Part shown: piece after piece, positions 21-41,766 of the stretch
Layout of the letters: every line of letters starts with the position of its first letter
Position numbering within the stretch: position 1 is the first letter of the stretch
Source of the DNA: Candidatus Tidjanibacter gallistercoris
Lineage (GTDB): Bacteria > Bacteroidota > Bacteroidia > Bacteroidales > Rikenellaceae
DNA: 64,000 nt
NCBI GenBank assembly: GCA_019114205.1
Contig: DXFY01000067.1
Coordinates: 1-64,000 of the forward strand
Direction of reading: 5' to 3'
Notes under the pieces: generated by a model
What the model was told of the DNA's origin: nothing
The model's input: the letters and a program-made list of their open reading frames with translations, nothing else
Databases searched by the model: none
Program-made: the position numbers and the translations under genes

Positions 21-51
21 CAAATATACGCTATTTTTCGATAACAACAAA
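21..51 (-). promoter_or_regulatory. Leftward promoter leaving the window
   Basis: On the minus strand TTTG (48-51), 19 bases, then TATATTTG (21-28) matches the Bacteroidota sigma-ABfr promoter TTTG-N19-TAnnTTTG exactly. It faces left, so a gene divergent from the ABC transporter should begin just outside the window. Apart from this and the next promoter, bases 1-295 hold nothing recognisable. Confidence 0.65.
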
Positions 52-9779: not shown

Positions 9780-9807
9780 AAAAAAGCGGGTACCCGCAGG
9801 TACCCGC
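9780..9807 (-). terminator. Terminator of the PorV/PorQ-like gene
   Basis: Minus-strand stem GCGGGTACC/GGTACCCGC with a 4-base loop, followed by TTTTTT, 27 bases after the stop. Confidence 0.9.
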
Positions 9808-9834
9808 CGTTCCGCACCGCAAGCGGTGGTATTG

Positions 9835-10836
9835 TCAAAAGAAAAGGCTCAGACCGACTGCCCACGTATTCTTTACGGGGCTGTCCTTGCCGGCAATCCA
9901 ATACGAACCGTCGATTCTTACCGGACCTACCGAAGCGCCGAGACCTACCGTAGCATAGCTTCCGCCGATGGATTTCTTATCGCCGTAATGATAACCGGCA
10001 CGAAGGAATCCGTGTTTGAGGAAATTGTATTCGAGACCGAGCGCTGCAATGAACGAAGCGTCGTTCGAAGGCATGAAGGTGTAACCGAGGTCGAGCGCTG
10101 CGAGAAGCTTGTGGTTCTCGGAGAAGGGCATGTCAATCGAACCGCCCAGGCGTGCATATGCAGGCATGGCGATGGGATTCGACGGAACCGAAATGTCGAG
10201 CTTCGTACCTACGTTGCTGACGTTCAGGCCCACGGCCCAAGTCGAACCGTAGAAGGACTCGATGGTGTTTTCATAGTAGAAGCCCAGGTCGAACGCGAAA
10301 GCATTGCCGGCCTTGAAAGCATCGCTGTCGAACTTCGTATAGTCCGAACGGATGTACCGCGCCGTAAGGGAGATGGCGAAGTTGTCCACAATCCTGCGGG
10401 TATAACCGATGCTGACGGCCATGTCGTTGGGACGTACCGATTCGCCCAGGGTACCGTCCCCTCCTGCGATGATGCTCTTCGGGCCGTTGAAGTAACGGAA
10501 ACCGAGCGAGAAGCCGTTGTTCTCATCGAGGTTGAAGTAACCGCCTACGGCATGGGTGGCCACTCCTTTGTTAAAATCGGGCATGACGGGATTGTATGAA
10601 TACCCGAAGCCCATCCTTTTCTCACTGAGCAGGTTGGAAGCAGCGTTGCCGAAAATTCCGAAAGGATTGTCGTTCACCGCCGTAGTTGCCATACCCATAC
10701 CGGCCGCACGAGGGTCTGCACTGTTAAGCAGAGAAGATGCCGCGCCGGTCGGACCGTCGTTCTGAGCCGATACGGTTGCGGAAATGCCGCAGAAAAGAGC
10801 CGTACAGATTGCTCCGAGCAAGATTTTTTTACTCAT
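9835..10836 (-). CDS. PorV/PorQ-family outer-membrane beta-barrel protein
   Basis: 333 residues with an SPI signal (about 1-25, ending VSAQ). The remainder is alternating beta-strand sequence rich in Gly and aromatic residues, with the early motif SADPRAAGMGMATTAV typical of PorV/PorQ (UPF0164-like) barrels, and it ends in Phe as outer-membrane barrels do. PorV and PorQ belong to the type IX secretion system, but no other T9SS gene is in this window, so a general barrel role is equally possible. It has its own promoter (10901-10908) and terminator. Its upstream region meets the invertible segment at 11129. Confidence 0.8.
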   Translation of the reverse strand: MSKKILLGAICTALFCGISATVSAQNDGPTGAASSLLNSADPRAAGMGMATTAVNDNPFGIFGNAASNLLSEKRMGFGYSYNPVMPDFNKGVATHAVGGYFNLDENNGFSLGFRYFNGPKSIIAGGDGTLGESVRPNDMAVSIGYTRRIVDNFAISLTARYIRSDYTKFDSDAFKAGNAFAFDLGFYYENTIESFYGSTWAVGLNVSNVGTKLDISVPSNPIAMPAYARLGGSIDMPFSENHKLLAALDLGYTFMPSNDASFIAALGLEYNFLKHGFLRAGYHYGDKKSIGGSYATVGLGASVGPVRIDGSYWIAGKDSPVKNTWAVGLSLFF

Positions 10837-10900
10837 AGTCAGAGATTTAGATTAATATAATTCGCTTCAGTTAATGACATGATGTGTAAGTCACAATAGA

Positions 10901-10908
10901 CAAAAATA
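10901..10908 (-). promoter_or_regulatory. -7 box for the PorV/PorQ-like gene
   Basis: Minus-strand TATTTTTG, full match to TAnnTTTG, about 65 bases upstream of the start codon. Confidence 0.6.
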
Positions 10909-11073
10909 GTAATTTTTCCTTAACTTGTCTAAACAACGTACAAAAATACTCGAAAACAGGAAACGCCCCGGAAAACAGCCCCCGGTGCCGAACGGACGAT
11001 AACGGCGCCGGATATCGGAAAACGACTGAAAGCGACACAAATGAGACCAGAACACGACGCTATGTCACAATGG

Positions 11074-11125: not shown

Positions 11126-11152
11126 ATGCCGTTACTTTATAGGTAACGGCAT
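11126..11152. repeat. Left inverted repeat, probable recombination site
   Basis: ATGCCGTTAC-TTTATAG-GTAACGGCAT: two 10-base arms around a 7-base asymmetric spacer, the form of a tyrosine recombinase core site. Bases 11129-11151 are an exact reverse complement of 12540-12562. Confidence 0.8.
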
Positions 11153-11433
11153 ACGGCCTGCAGGCCCTTCCGGGGGCGTTTTGAGGATTTCGGAAAAACG
11201 GGGATGCGCAGACGGCATCCGCAGGCAACAGTGCGAATGCGGAGGGGGGGACGGGAATGCGGCCCGTCGGGCAGTAGCATGGGAAAGGCATGCCGGAAGG
11301 AGCGGAAGATGTTCCCGGCGTGTATGGAACGCGGTGCCGTATGAGGCCCTGCGGTTATGTCATGGAAGCGGCACGCAAGGGTGCCAGGGGGATGCCGGAT
11401 TCGGTATCCCCTTCGTATTGCGATTGGAGCGTG

Positions 11434-12399
11434 TTACGGCCGGCCGGATTCGGACGGTGTTTTCCGTTTCGCCTTTCTCTTTACGAACGATATGACTGCC
11501 CGGTTGGCATCGTCGATGCGGTCGTCGCGGAACGGTTTGAGGTAGGTTTCCGTGACCGCGATGGAAGAGTGCCCCATGGCTTCCGAGATGATACCGGGAT
11601 GGATTTCGCAGTAGTAAGCCATCGTGGCCCATGTATGGCGAATCGTATAGGTACTGATGGGGGTGGCGCCTCCCAGGTATTCCCGCAGGGCAGCCAGGCG
11701 TCGGTTGAAGCTGCGCAGCGCCCGCTGGTATTCGCGGTAGGCCTCCTCGGTTCCTTCGGGGCTGGACAGGAATGAAAATAGATAGGGCGAATCGGCATTT
11801 CGGTTCGCTACCTTGTCGATGAGCCGACGGGCTTCGGGCGTCAGTATTACGGTGAGCTGCCGGCCCGTCTTGCGGCGCCGGTACCTTAATATATTGTCCT
11901 GTATGTCCGACCTGTGCAGGTAGGCGAGGTCCACGAACGGGATGCCGCGCAGCAGGAACATCAGCCGGAGCATGTTTCTCGTATATTCCAGCCCGGCGGG
12001 CAGGGCGTTCTCCCTTTTTTCGCCTGTACCGAGCAGGCCACCCATATCCGCAGCATCGAGAGCCTTTTTCCGTTGGGAGGACACACCCGTGTGCACGTGT
12101 CGGAAAAGGCGGGGAACATAGGCGGCGGAACCTTCCTCGACGGCCCGGTTGTACGTGGCCCGCACCACTTTCATGTAGGTGGATACCGTATTCCAGCTGC
12201 ATTTGCGTTCGCGCAGGTGTATTTCGAAGCCCTTCAGCAGTGCCGGCGTGAGCTTAGCGAAGGGAATGTCCCTGCGGCGGACGAATAGTTCGAATGCGTT
12301 GTACGCACTCCGGTACACGTGGGCGGTTCCCCATTGGCCGTTCGATTCAAGTTCCTGTATGATAGATGATAACATCTGCAATAATGATTTCTGTTCCAT
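11434..12399 (-). CDS. Tyrosine-type site-specific recombinase (invertase-like)
   Basis: 321 residues. The N-terminal SAM-like core-binding domain covers about 1-105 and the catalytic domain 115-305. Catalytic residues visible: Arg151 (LLRGIPFVDLAY), Lys177, Arg254 in TYTIRHTWAT, His277 in MGHSS and the nucleophile Tyr286 in TETYLKPF. The first His of the HxxR box is replaced by Tyr251, as is frequent in Bacteroidota phase-variation integrases. The gene lies wholly between 23-base inverted repeats shaped like recombinase sites, 141 bases from the right one, so inversion of that segment is its likely job. No promoter was recognised for it. A basic tail (VKRKAKRK) closes the protein. Confidence 0.9.
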   Translation of the reverse strand: MEQKSLLQMLSSIIQELESNGQWGTAHVYRSAYNAFELFVRRRDIPFAKLTPALLKGFEIHLRERKCSWNTVSTYMKVVRATYNRAVEEGSAAYVPRLFRHVHTGVSSQRKKALDAADMGGLLGTGEKRENALPAGLEYTRNMLRLMFLLRGIPFVDLAYLHRSDIQDNILRYRRRKTGRQLTVILTPEARRLIDKVANRNADSPYLFSFLSSPEGTEEAYREYQRALRSFNRRLAALREYLGGATPISTYTIRHTWATMAYYCEIHPGIISEAMGHSSIAVTETYLKPFRDDRIDDANRAVISFVKRKAKRKTPSESGRP

Positions 12400-12496
12400 A
12401 ATGCGGTTTGTTTTGGTCGAATATGTCGTTCCGCTCCGATTCGGAAAAATCGGGGCCCGTTGATTGTTCTTGCGTGTGAGAAAAAACAGTGATAAT

Positions 12497-12527
12497 TTTG
12501 TGCGGTTGCAAAAAACAATTATATTTG
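12497..12527 (+). promoter_or_regulatory. Outward promoter inside the invertible segment
   Basis: TTTG (12497-12500), exactly 19 bases, TATATTTG (12520-12527): a full consensus Bacteroidota promoter. Start of transcription would fall near 12534, so the right inverted repeat lies in the 5' leader of the surface lipoprotein gene. A second -7-like box, TAATTTTG, is at 12493-12500. In the orientation sequenced the target gene should be ON. Confidence 0.75.
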
Positions 12528-12539
12528 CGTTGTATTATG

Positions 12540-12562
12540 TGCCGTTACCTATAAAGTAACGG
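12540..12562. repeat. Right inverted repeat, probable recombination site
   Basis: TGCCGTTACCTATAAAGTAACGG; arms GCCGTTAC/GTAACGG around CTATAAA. Exact reverse complement of 11129-11151. Confidence 0.8.
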
Positions 12563-12611
12563 AAAAACGGACGGAAGTATTGAGTGACGGAACAAGGCCA
12601 CATTATCTTTT

Positions 12612-12631
12612 TTAAAATTTATAAATTTTAA
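12612..12631. repeat. AT-only 20-base palindrome in the leader of the surface lipoprotein
   Basis: TTAAAATTTATAAATTTTAA is a perfect palindrome ending 11 bases before the ATG. It may keep the ribosome site open or bind a regulator; neither is shown. Confidence 0.5.
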
Positions 12632-12642
12632 TTCTTTGTGTC

Positions 12643-15336
12643 ATGAACAAAAAATTTCTAAGCGTCCTTTTGTGCGGGGCTATCATGTCCGGTTCTACGG
12701 GGGTGTTCACATCCTGTAAGAACTACGACAGCGACATCGCAAGCCTGGACGAACGCGTAACAGCAGTCGAAAAATCGGTCAGCGAGCTGAAAGCACAAAT
12801 CAGCGGCGGAGCCGTCATCACGGACGTACAGTCCACCGCGAACGGCGTTACCGTGACATTGAGCAACGGCAAAACGTTCGAACTCACGAACGGCAAGGAT
12901 GGAGCGAACGGCTCGAACGGTCAGGATGGCAAACCGGGTTCGGTCGTAACCATCGGCGACAACGGAAACTGGTTCATCGACGGTGTCGATACGGGCAAAC
13001 CATCTCAGGGAGAAAAGGGTGACAAAGGTGACCAGGGCGACCCCGGAACTCCAGGAACTCCAGGCGGTAACGGCAACAAGGGAGATAAAGGCGATACCAT
13101 ATATTATTATCCCGGCACCGAAGGCGAAGAATCCGGTTTCTGGGTGAAAGTAACACGCGACGGTGCAACGGGCAACGAAACGAAAGAGGTAACGACGGAC
13201 TCCTGGATGCCGACCGGCACCGTAACCGCCGTATGGGATACGGAAGAAGGATACCTCATTCTCAACAATGTGGAAGGTTCCGAAGAAGCCATCCGCATCC
13301 AGCTTTTCAGCACGTTGCAGTCGCTGGCATTCGTACCGCAGGTCATCGACACGAAACTGGGCATGGGCGTCATCGATTTCTATACGATTACCAAGGACAA
13401 CGCCTTCGTCGCTTCCAACACGGCGCTGGCAACGTACCGCCTGAACCCGACCAATGCGAAGGTTTCCGACATCGAATGGTCGTTCATCGACCGCACGGTA
13501 GCAACCCGCGTGGCAGGCGATAACTACACACTGCTCGCCATCGACGGCGAACCGGAAGTGCTTGCAGGCAGCGTGAATTTCAATGTCATCGCCGAAGACG
13601 ACCTGTCCGACCTGAAAGCCGACCAGGAAGCCATCGTAGCCCTCCGGGCGGTAGATACTGATGATGCGGAAATCGTATCCGACTACGCAGCGGTAAAGGT
13701 TACCGAGTTGACGGATTTCGCCATCATCAATAAAGAAAAGCTGAAATACGACGAGGACAACAACGTGGATTACACCGAATCCCTCCCCGTAGTCGAACTC
13801 AGCACGACCCTTCCCGCTATCGGTGCAACAGCTGATGCATACTTCAAATACGACGAGTCGAAAGACCTCCACGATGTCGTAGAAACGTGGGCAGAGGAGA
13901 TAAGCAAAGTCCTCACCGATGCTTCCGTGCGTTTCACTCCCGTTTACGCATTCGAGAAAGTAGACAAATACCTCGGTACGGACGGTGCTACCGACCAGCA
14001 GCAGTTCGTAACCCTCGACGAGGAAACGGGCATCGTGACCGTAAACAAGGAATGGCTCGCACAGGGTACCGCAGCAGTAGGCCGTACCCCCGTATTCAAG
14101 GTAACGTCGCTCGTGAACAACACCGCGATAGCTTCCGCCTACATCAAACTCGAAATCACCAAAGAAGCCGTTTCCCAGGAGGAGAAAGAAGACTTCGAAA
14201 AGACCTGGAACGTCAATCAGGGCGTTGCTATCGAATACAGCGACATCGACCCGACTCTCGGATTCACCGAGAAGTACTCCTGGGCTACGTTCAATGCCGA
14301 AATCCTCGACGTACTCGGAATAACGCCGGATGAATTCATGAATCGGTACGACATAGCAAACTATACCATCGTTCCGAACAACGGCACGGTAACAGGCGTA
14401 ACGATAACCTCCAACGTGGTGGACGGAACCACCGAGACGGAAATCGCAAACATCCATATCAAAAATACGGCAGCATTCGGCGCGAAGACTTTCACGCTTA
14501 CCTATCCTGCAAAGAACAATTATCAGGACCCGAACATCGTCATCACGATTGCATACACCATCGAGCATGACGACAGCCACATGCCTGCACTCAACCCCGA
14601 CTACCTCCTCGCAGGTACGACCAATACGGTACAGGTAAAGGGCCGGGAAGTAAACGACACCTGGAAGCTGAATGCAGCGATGAAAGAATTCTGCAAAGAC
14701 TACCTCAACAATTACGATGTAACGGCGGGCAACCATACCGACCTGTATTTCCGCTTCAAAGACAACCAACCCGTAACCGGCGTTGCCATCACGGGCTCGA
14801 ACTGGAGCGACCAGGAAATCGCACTGACTACTCCGCTGACACAGAACGAAGATGCGAGAACTTACGAGGTCGAAATGGTCGCTAAGTGCGTCAACGGCGA
14901 ACTTTGCACGAAGGCATTCATCGTACGCTTCGTAAGGCCGTTCAATGCTACGATAGACGCAACAGTCCTCAAGACGCTCACCGCAACAGCGGATACCGAA
15001 GACATAGCCAAACTGGTGGTCATCAGGGATACGGACAACCGGGTGGTATATGAAAACGGCGCACTGACGACGCTCGGCACGCAGACGTACAAGCTGAATG
15101 CCTCGACGCTGACCTTCGCCTATTCGATAGACTACACCAACGACAGCGAAGCATCGTTCGGCGGCGGCCTGACTATCGACGCAACCAACGGAATGCTGAC
15201 GTGGCTCAACCAGGGAGGCGACCTGCAAACCGACAAAAAAGCCACTTCCGTAGCCGTCATCACGATACCCGACTTGGCCGATATCAAGGCGACCGGTACG
15301 ATAACCGTGCTTTCTACCGCGAACAGCAAAGAATAA
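12643..15336 (+). CDS. Large surface lipoprotein with coiled coil and collagen-like repeats (probable phase-variable)
   Basis: 897 residues. The SPII signal ends VFTSC (Cys 25); a coiled coil follows (about 28-55), then a short beta region, two runs of Gly-X-Y triplets (84-99 and 123-151, for instance GEKGDKGDQGDPGTPG), and about 740 residues of beta-rich, Thr/Val/Asp-rich sequence probably forming Ig-like domains. This N-terminal plan (lipid anchor, coiled coil, DUF4988/PL29-N-like segment) recurs in Bacteroidota surface lipoproteins. The gene is read from a consensus promoter in the invertible segment upstream, which suggests ON/OFF expression; a surface-layer-like coat such as BT1927 of B. 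thetaiotaomicron is a possible analogue, not established. A strong terminator follows at 15390-15421. Confidence 0.8.
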   Translation: MNKKFLSVLLCGAIMSGSTGVFTSCKNYDSDIASLDERVTAVEKSVSELKAQISGGAVITDVQSTANGVTVTLSNGKTFELTNGKDGANGSNGQDGKPGSVVTIGDNGNWFIDGVDTGKPSQGEKGDKGDQGDPGTPGTPGGNGNKGDKGDTIYYYPGTEGEESGFWVKVTRDGATGNETKEVTTDSWMPTGTVTAVWDTEEGYLILNNVEGSEEAIRIQLFSTLQSLAFVPQVIDTKLGMGVIDFYTITKDNAFVASNTALATYRLNPTNAKVSDIEWSFIDRTVATRVAGDNYTLLAIDGEPEVLAGSVNFNVIAEDDLSDLKADQEAIVALRAVDTDDAEIVSDYAAVKVTELTDFAIINKEKLKYDEDNNVDYTESLPVVELSTTLPAIGATADAYFKYDESKDLHDVVETWAEEISKVLTDASVRFTPVYAFEKVDKYLGTDGATDQQQFVTLDEETGIVTVNKEWLAQGTAAVGRTPVFKVTSLVNNTAIASAYIKLEITKEAVSQEEKEDFEKTWNVNQGVAIEYSDIDPTLGFTEKYSWATFNAEILDVLGITPDEFMNRYDIANYTIVPNNGTVTGVTITSNVVDGTTETEIANIHIKNTAAFGAKTFTLTYPAKNNYQDPNIVITIAYTIEHDDSHMPALNPDYLLAGTTNTVQVKGREVNDTWKLNAAMKEFCKDYLNNYDVTAGNHTDLYFRFKDNQPVTGVAITGSNWSDQEIALTTPLTQNEDARTYEVEMVAKCVNGELCTKAFIVRFVRPFNATIDATVLKTLTATADTEDIAKLVVIRDTDNRVVYENGALTTLGTQTYKLNASTLTFAYSIDYTNDSEASFGGGLTIDATNGMLTWLNQGGDLQTDKKATSVAVITIPDLADIKATGTITVLSTANSKE

Positions 15337-15389
15337 CGGTAAAAAGACTGTTCCCCGAATAGTCTGGTTTCAGGATTATTAATTGCAGG

Positions 15390-15747: not shown

Positions 15748-16923
15748 CTATTGCAGTCCGTAGGCGTACATCTTCACGTCCGCAGCCGTTATCGTATCGT
15801 CGCACAGAATGACGAGCCGTTCCACCACATTGCGCAGCTCTCGGATATTGCCCGTCCACGGCAGCTTCTTCAGCTCGTCCAGCGCACGGTGCTCTATCTT
15901 CTTGACCGGCACGTTGTATTCGCCGCAGATGACTTCGAGAAAATGGTCCACCAATATCGGAATGTCGTCGATTCGCTCGGCCAGCGTCGGTACATGAATG
16001 ACGATAACGCTCAGCCGGTGGAACAGGTCTTCACGGAAATTTCCATGCGTTATTTCACTGGGAATATCCTTGTTCGTAGCAGCCAGCACACGGACGTTCA
16101 CGTCTATGTCGCGGTCGCTGCCCACGCGCGTTATCTTACGCTCCTGCAAAACGCGCAGTACTTTTGCCTGCGCCGGAAGGGACATGTCCCCTATCTCGTC
16201 CAGGAACAGCGTTCCGTTATGAGCCTGCTCGAACTTTCCCTTGCGCTGCTTGATGGCCGATGTGAAGGCTCCCTTCTCGTGCCCGAACAGTTCGCTCTCG
16301 ATGAGCTCGGAAGGGATGGCTGCACAGTTCACTTCGACGAAAGGGCCGTCGCGGCGGCGGCTCTTTTCATGGAGCCACCGCGCCACGAGTTCTTTGCCCG
16401 TTCCGTTAGCGCCCATGATGAGTACCCGCGCATCGGTCGGCGCCACCTTGTCGATAAGTCGGTTCAAATGCATGACGGGGGCCGATTCACCTACGATTCG
16501 TCCCACCCGGAACGCACCTGCACGCACCTTGCACACCGGTACCGCCTCTTCGACGGGCGGTACGGGGGCGTCGGCCACCTCCGCAGCAGCGGCGCCCGGC
16601 GTTTTGGCAAGCCCTTTCTTTATGGCATCCAGCAGCCTGTTCATGTTCACGGGTTTCGTGATGAAATCCACGGCACCCTGCTGCATGGCAAGCACGGCGC
16701 TTTCGGGGCTGCTGTCATGGGACAGTCTTATCCACGGTGTGGAAGTTCTCAGCGGGGAATCCGGTTGGCCGCACAGCAACAAGTCGAAATTCCTATGCGC
16801 ATAGGCGGTCATCCCGGCAATGGTGTCTTCGGCGACTTCTACCGCATGGCCCTCATACTCCAAACGCTCTTTCAGAGTATTGCGCATGCTGCGCGAAGGA
16901 TCTATTACCAGAATATTGGCCAT
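15748..16923 (-). CDS. Sigma-54-dependent activator with degenerate receiver domain
   Basis: 391 residues: a receiver-like domain (1-110), a short Ala/Pro/Val linker, then a complete AAA+ domain (about 140-380) with Walker A GANGTGKE, the sigma-54 contact loop as GAFTSA, Walker B TLFLDEIGD and the arginine-finger segment FREDLFHRL. In the receiver the acidic pair after the first strand reads DPS instead of DD, and the phosphoacceptor position reads LLLCGQP instead of LLCDxxMP, so Asp is replaced by Gly; the Lys of FITKP is kept. No Fis-type DNA-binding helix-turn-helix is evident at the end. No histidine kinase is adjacent. It is read from one arm of a palindromic divergent promoter. Target genes are unknown. 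Confidence 0.85.
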   Translation of the reverse strand: MANILVIDPSRSMRNTLKERLEYEGHAVEVAEDTIAGMTAYAHRNFDLLLCGQPDSPLRTSTPWIRLSHDSSPESAVLAMQQGAVDFITKPVNMNRLLDAIKKGLAKTPGAAAAEVADAPVPPVEEAVPVCKVRAGAFRVGRIVGESAPVMHLNRLIDKVAPTDARVLIMGANGTGKELVARWLHEKSRRRDGPFVEVNCAAIPSELIESELFGHEKGAFTSAIKQRKGKFEQAHNGTLFLDEIGDMSLPAQAKVLRVLQERKITRVGSDRDIDVNVRVLAATNKDIPSEITHGNFREDLFHRLSVIVIHVPTLAERIDDIPILVDHFLEVICGEYNVPVKKIEHRALDELKKLPWTGNIRELRNVVERLVILCDDTITAADVKMYAYGLQ

Positions 16924-16985: not shown

Positions 16986-17016
16986 CAAAGTTAAGTAATT
17001 AGTTTTTCTTGTCAAA
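16986..17016 (-). promoter_or_regulatory. Leftward arm of a divergent promoter pair
   Basis: Minus-strand TTTG (17013-17016), 19 bases, TAACTTTG (16993-16986). It should serve the sigma-54 activator gene. It shares the 18-base palindrome with the rightward promoter, so both cannot be occupied at once. Confidence 0.7.
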
Positions 17017-23617: not shown

Positions 23618-23648
23618 TTTGCACAAACAAATATTTGCTATATATTTG
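23618..23648 (+). promoter_or_regulatory. Promoter of tRNA-Asn
   Basis: TTTG (23618-23621), exactly 19 bases, TATATTTG (23641-23648). Confidence 0.8.
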
Positions 23649-41735: not shown

Positions 41736-41766
41736 CAAAGGTACATATTCCGCAGCGATAAACAAA
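41736..41766 (-). promoter_or_regulatory. Promoter of smpB-tsaB-deaminase
   Basis: Minus-strand TTTG (41766-41763), 19 bases, TACCTTTG (41743-41736), 11 bases from the smpB ATG. Confidence 0.75.

Follow-up and report, generated by a model that had tools for sequence, protein, structure and literature searches.

An invertible promoter segment that encloses its own tyrosine recombinase, a probable phase switch for an S-layer-like surface lipoprotein in Candidatus Tidjanibacter gallistercoris

In the 64,000-nucleotide stretch of Candidatus Tidjanibacter gallistercoris DNA analysed here (the window), a tyrosine recombinase gene and an outward-facing promoter lie together between two inverted repeats, directly before the gene of a large surface lipoprotein. 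This arrangement raises the question of whether the locus is a phase switch and, if so, whether it is of a new kind. The features on which the answer depends are the following.

11126 to 12562, no strand assigned: whole invertible segment, about 1.41 kb, inverted relative to the sister genome G002, with both flanks colinear
11126 to 11152, minus strand: left recombination site, ATGCCGTTAC-TTTATAG-GTAACGGCAT, an inverted copy of the right site, conserved in G001, G002, G019 and G022
12540 to 12562, plus strand: right recombination site, TGCCGTTAC-CTATAAA-GTAACGG, fitting the published BT1927-family repeat (PMC12118408)
11434 to 12399, minus strand: tyrosine recombinase of 321 aa, inside the invertible segment, with Phage_int_SAM_5 and Phage_integrase domains
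12497 to 12527, plus strand: Bacteroidota promoter TTTG-N19-TATATTTG, pointing outward over the right site into the lipoprotein gene (ON)
12643 to 15336, plus strand: target surface lipoprotein of 897 aa, S-layer-like, with a lipobox, DUF4988, a collagen-like G-x-y stretch and a beta-rich body
9835 to 10836, minus strand: PorV-family outer-membrane protein, the left neighbour
15748 to 16923, minus strand: sigma-54 response regulator, the right neighbour

The sequence-only reading had proposed a promoter cassette bounded by two exact 23-base inverted repeats, each made of 8-10 base arms around a 7-base asymmetric spacer. The exact 23-base repeat was indeed present in two inverted copies, at 11129-11151 (minus strand) and 12540-12562 (plus strand), with 0 expected in shuffled sequence, and its 21-base core formed the sole such pair in the 2.03-Mb genome, even when 3 mismatches were allowed. 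The core site consists of the arms CCGTTAC and GTAACGG around an asymmetric 7-bp spacer (CTATAAA, or TTTATAG on the other strand); the left site has 10-bp arms, and the perfect arms of the right site measure 7 bp. The 19 bases CCGTTACCTATAAAGTAAC at 12542-12560 match the BT1927-family consensus CCGTTACCTABVRAGTAAC exactly, a repeat that in B. thetaiotaomicron precedes BT1927 and seven other loci close to site-specific integrases and surface proteins (PMC12118408). A reading of the palindromes as transcription terminators was set aside, the palindromes being better accounted for by the pairing of spacers and by the inversion seen between sister genomes. Searches with PADLOC and Rfam gave no match at the switch locus, and when viral contigs were scanned for the palindrome, the only matches were to single sites and were taken as chance.

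The promoter predicted to point out of the segment across the right repeat was found as a perfect TTTG-N19-TATATTTG match. The window contains 5 matches to this pattern, whereas shuffled sequence would give 0.10, so the pattern is a genuine signal of this genome. The four other perfect TTTG-N19-TANNTTTG matches lie at 21-51 (minus), 16986-17016 (minus), 23618-23648 (plus) and 41736-41766 (minus), the one at 16986 being upstream of the sigma-54 regulator gene.

The enclosed gene likewise proved to encode a tyrosine recombinase, as the sequence-only reading had it, with a Phage_integrase domain (PF00589, E 8.6e-11) that carries the R-K-H/Y-R-H-Y set defining the superfamily. The catalytic residues R151, K177, Y251, R254, H277 and Y286 are intact; the last five do not vary across the 57 relatives aligned, and 52/57 retain R151. 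Tyr251, present in all 57, stands at the position that the first His takes in many tyrosine recombinases. The structure model (pLDDT 86) matched the folds of Tn1549 integrase, Xer and lambda integrase. The recombinase encoded in the segment presumably performs the inversion, including both binding and catalysis at the sites.

Flipped assemblies in related genomes had been named as a check on the switch, and they were found. In blastn alignment with G002, window positions 9800-10954 and 12537-15383 were colinear (82% and 73% identity), whereas 11450-12562 was reversed, with the direction changing at the sites and the G002 recombinase 77-79% identical to that of the window. The window is in the ON orientation, its promoter facing the lipoprotein gene, and that of G002 is OFF; a second sister pair is also opposed, G022 being ON and G001 OFF, and G019 is OFF. 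As orientation differs in two sister pairs, these comparisons indicate that the segment, judged from the assembled sequences, has inverted repeatedly within the genus, and the exact inversion between the two sites in a sister genome argues for a phase switch at this locus. Across the genus, the same 5/23 genomes (G000, G001, G002, G019 and G022) have all three of close recombinase, sites and full-length lipoprotein. The remaining 18/23 lack both the sites and a full lipoprotein, and even their best recombinase matches do not exceed 36% identity. One genome, G020, has the PorV and sigma-54 regulator genes about 280 bp apart, and the two align with the window to the left and right of the module; by this alignment it is an unoccupied locus, either by original absence or by loss.

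A scan of species genomes yielded 65 loci with related recombinases, in two architectures. In the enclosed form, the recombinase lies inside an inverted segment of 1.1-1.5 kb, as in Tidjanibacter, B. stercorirosoris, B. cellulosilyticus, B. timonensis, B. oleiciplenus, B. rodentium, B. muris, B. cutis, Odoribacter, Mediterranea and Muribaculaceae; in the other, the recombinase adjoins a segment of about 250-305 bp that holds only the promoter, as in B. faecis, B. acidifaciens, B. congonensis, B. fragilis, Phocaeicola and others. Among the enclosed loci, L032 is that of B. cellulosilyticus DSM 14838. The two architectures clustered on the unrooted recombinase tree, with 2 label changes needed against a shuffled mean of 16; a few rows, including L080 with its broken frame, sit on long branches where placement is uncertain. 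The site scan usually found one pair per enclosed-form genome scanned, versus many short pairs per B. faecis-type genome. The L080 locus (L080:1155-5845) has an enclosed site pair and a recombinase whose frame is broken; the lipoprotein-like gene that flanks it in inverted copies is not DUF4988 but a different one.

The 7-nt spacers were identical within the locus in 20/20 enclosed loci (140/140 positions), yet 11 spacer types exist, and the best of 10,000 random re-pairings reached 121 positions against the 140 observed, a comparison in which picking site pairs at ≤3 mismatches over 17 positions brings some bias to identity and related loci are not independent. In all 20 of these loci, 14-17 nt separate the promoter TANNTTTG box from the site on the recombinase side, within the segment, and a lipoprotein of the DUF4988 target family adjoins the segment. 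Together with the inversion between sister genomes, this within-locus spacer identity and constant promoter position support the phase-switch interpretation. The assembled orientation at 16 single-target loci was ON in 2 (the window and G022) and OFF in 14, a preponderance that, by analogy, would agree with the behaviour of BT1927, for which only about 1 in 1,000 cultured cells is ON (PMC12548429).

Two other explanations bear on these observations. The switch may once have been active but have since become fixed in the ON state in this species, so that the differing orientations would record old inversions; although the differences at hand are indeed cross-species only, the full-length recombinase frame with its intact catalytic set, the exactness of both sites and the spacer identity within every enclosed locus make this improbable. 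We consider it still less probable, to the point of being very remote, that the module is a small mobile element that has integrated into the genome, with the two sites as its attachment ends and the inversion as a mere by-product. Its recombinase does belong to the integrase superfamily, and the module, lipoprotein included, is present or absent among genomes at one fixed locus and occurs at other loci in other genera; however, inverted rather than direct sites lead to inversion rather than excision, the lipoprotein lies outside them, and promoter position and target family are constant throughout the 20 enclosed loci. An integrative mobile element was accordingly rejected as a class assignment, since direct attachment sites enclosing a cargo were looked for and the sites are inverted with the lipoprotein outside.

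The nature of the target was approached through its relatives and its predicted fold. The lipoprotein is homologous to those at the promoter-only loci of B. faecis and relatives (E ~1e-13 to 1e-17). Its structure model is of modest confidence (mean pLDDT 65) and was best matched in the PDB by the S-layer protein SbsB, followed by cadherins; given this confidence and TM-scores that were low throughout, the fold matches only suggest a chain of Ig-like domains. We call the protein S-layer-like on the strength of the related targets and this modest-confidence fold, and it may build an S-layer-type coat. Its collagen-like Gly-x-y stretch varies in length between relatives. Matches to PHROG tail fibres were confined to that stretch and were dismissed as compositional.

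From these features, we consider it very probable that the locus is an ON/OFF phase switch for the S-layer-like surface lipoprotein, driven by the enclosed tyrosine recombinase. In the mechanism we propose, the recombinase would bind the GTTAC/GTAAC arms of both inverted sites, and strand exchange across the identical 7-bp spacers would invert the 1.41-kb segment, its own gene included. In the ON orientation, which is the one assembled, the promoter would read over the right site into the DUF4988 lipoprotein gene; in the OFF orientation it would face PorV, a gene apparently served by a separate promoter beyond the element, and the lipoprotein gene would be left without a promoter. Flipping presumably continues within a population, the orientation data themselves being between species.

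A variant of this scheme, in which the segment selects either the lipoprotein or PorV instead of toggling one gene, would account for the OFF-orientation promoter facing PorV at a distance of about 300 bp, and has a parallel in four relatives (L034, L036, L041 and L052) whose cassettes are flanked left and right by divergent lipoprotein genes. We nevertheless regard it as unlikely at this locus, as PorV is unrelated to the target lipoprotein and its upstream region, with a promoter-like box at about 10890-10925, falls outside the element and is retained by G020, where the element is absent. Because that box is kept in the element-free genome, PorV expression is probably, on sequence grounds, not dependent on the switch. 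The flanking lipoprotein genes of L036, L041 and L052 are non-identical, with 41% identity in L041 and mostly N-terminal similarity in L036 and L052. In L034 (L034:2696-10442, B. oleiciplenus YIT 12058), the cassette lies between two identical inverted lipoprotein gene copies of 3,193 bp, a pair that could reflect recent duplication or assembly joining of both orientations, and a second recombinase relative occurs at 11848-12736.

Returning to the single-target ON/OFF switch, we compared it with known systems. BT1927-type loci share with the window the consensus site, a related lipoprotein target family, a tyrosine recombinase at the locus and the Bacteroidota promoter; those in B. faecis and other B. 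thetaiotaomicron relatives have a promoter-only segment of about 283 bp, the recombinase beside it and many sites per genome, whereas the window has one 1.41-kb segment enclosing the recombinase. For the enclosure itself there is a precedent in Salmonella Hin, where the promoter also lies inside the inverting segment. Hin is the cited case of a recombinase gene inside its own invertible segment (PMC5903667), but it is a serine recombinase, unlike the tyrosine recombinase of the window with its Xer/lox-like core sites. Tsr19/BF2766 of B. fragilis is a tyrosine recombinase inverting surface-gene promoters (PMC4747536) and so resembles the window, also in being from Bacteroidales, but it is encoded outside the segments and acts on one local and one distant promoter. 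The sequence-only reading had contrasted the cassette with the Mpi capsule switches of B. fragilis, which likewise involve invertible promoters for surface structures; the union of recombinase and promoter inside one unit stands, but Mpi is a serine recombinase acting on many distant sites (PMC5903667), and Bacteroides also have local tyrosine recombinases adjoining invertible promoters.

The novelty implied by that contrast was consequently too strong, as site and target fall in the BT1927-type family and an enclosed recombinase is known from Hin. Since the known Bacteroides form is promoter-only (about 280 bp) and Hin provides the precedent for enclosure, the locus is a new architectural variant of a known Bacteroidales S-layer phase switch, not a new kind of system. 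Nothing in the literature searched, the coverage of which was partial, describes a member of the BT1927-type family with its tyrosine recombinase enclosed. We lean slightly towards regarding the enclosed cassettes as a distinct, undescribed Bacteroidales family of autonomous switches, in which a single inverting unit holds the promoter, the two sites and the recombinase. Such units would come and go together with the S-layer-like gene, mostly as one copy in a genome, and in some hosts would toggle two divergent S-layer-like genes.

Phase variation is proven for the BT1927 S-layer protein, which has been linked to resistance against complement and phages (PMC12548429), and the present locus would extend this Bacteroides surface switch to Rikenellaceae in a compact, self-contained form. 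The two-target relatives further suggest an either/or choice between S-layer-like proteins. As each comprises one recombinase and one site pair that has its own spacer, the cassettes would offer a clean system for the study of tyrosine-recombinase inversion in gut Bacteroidales.
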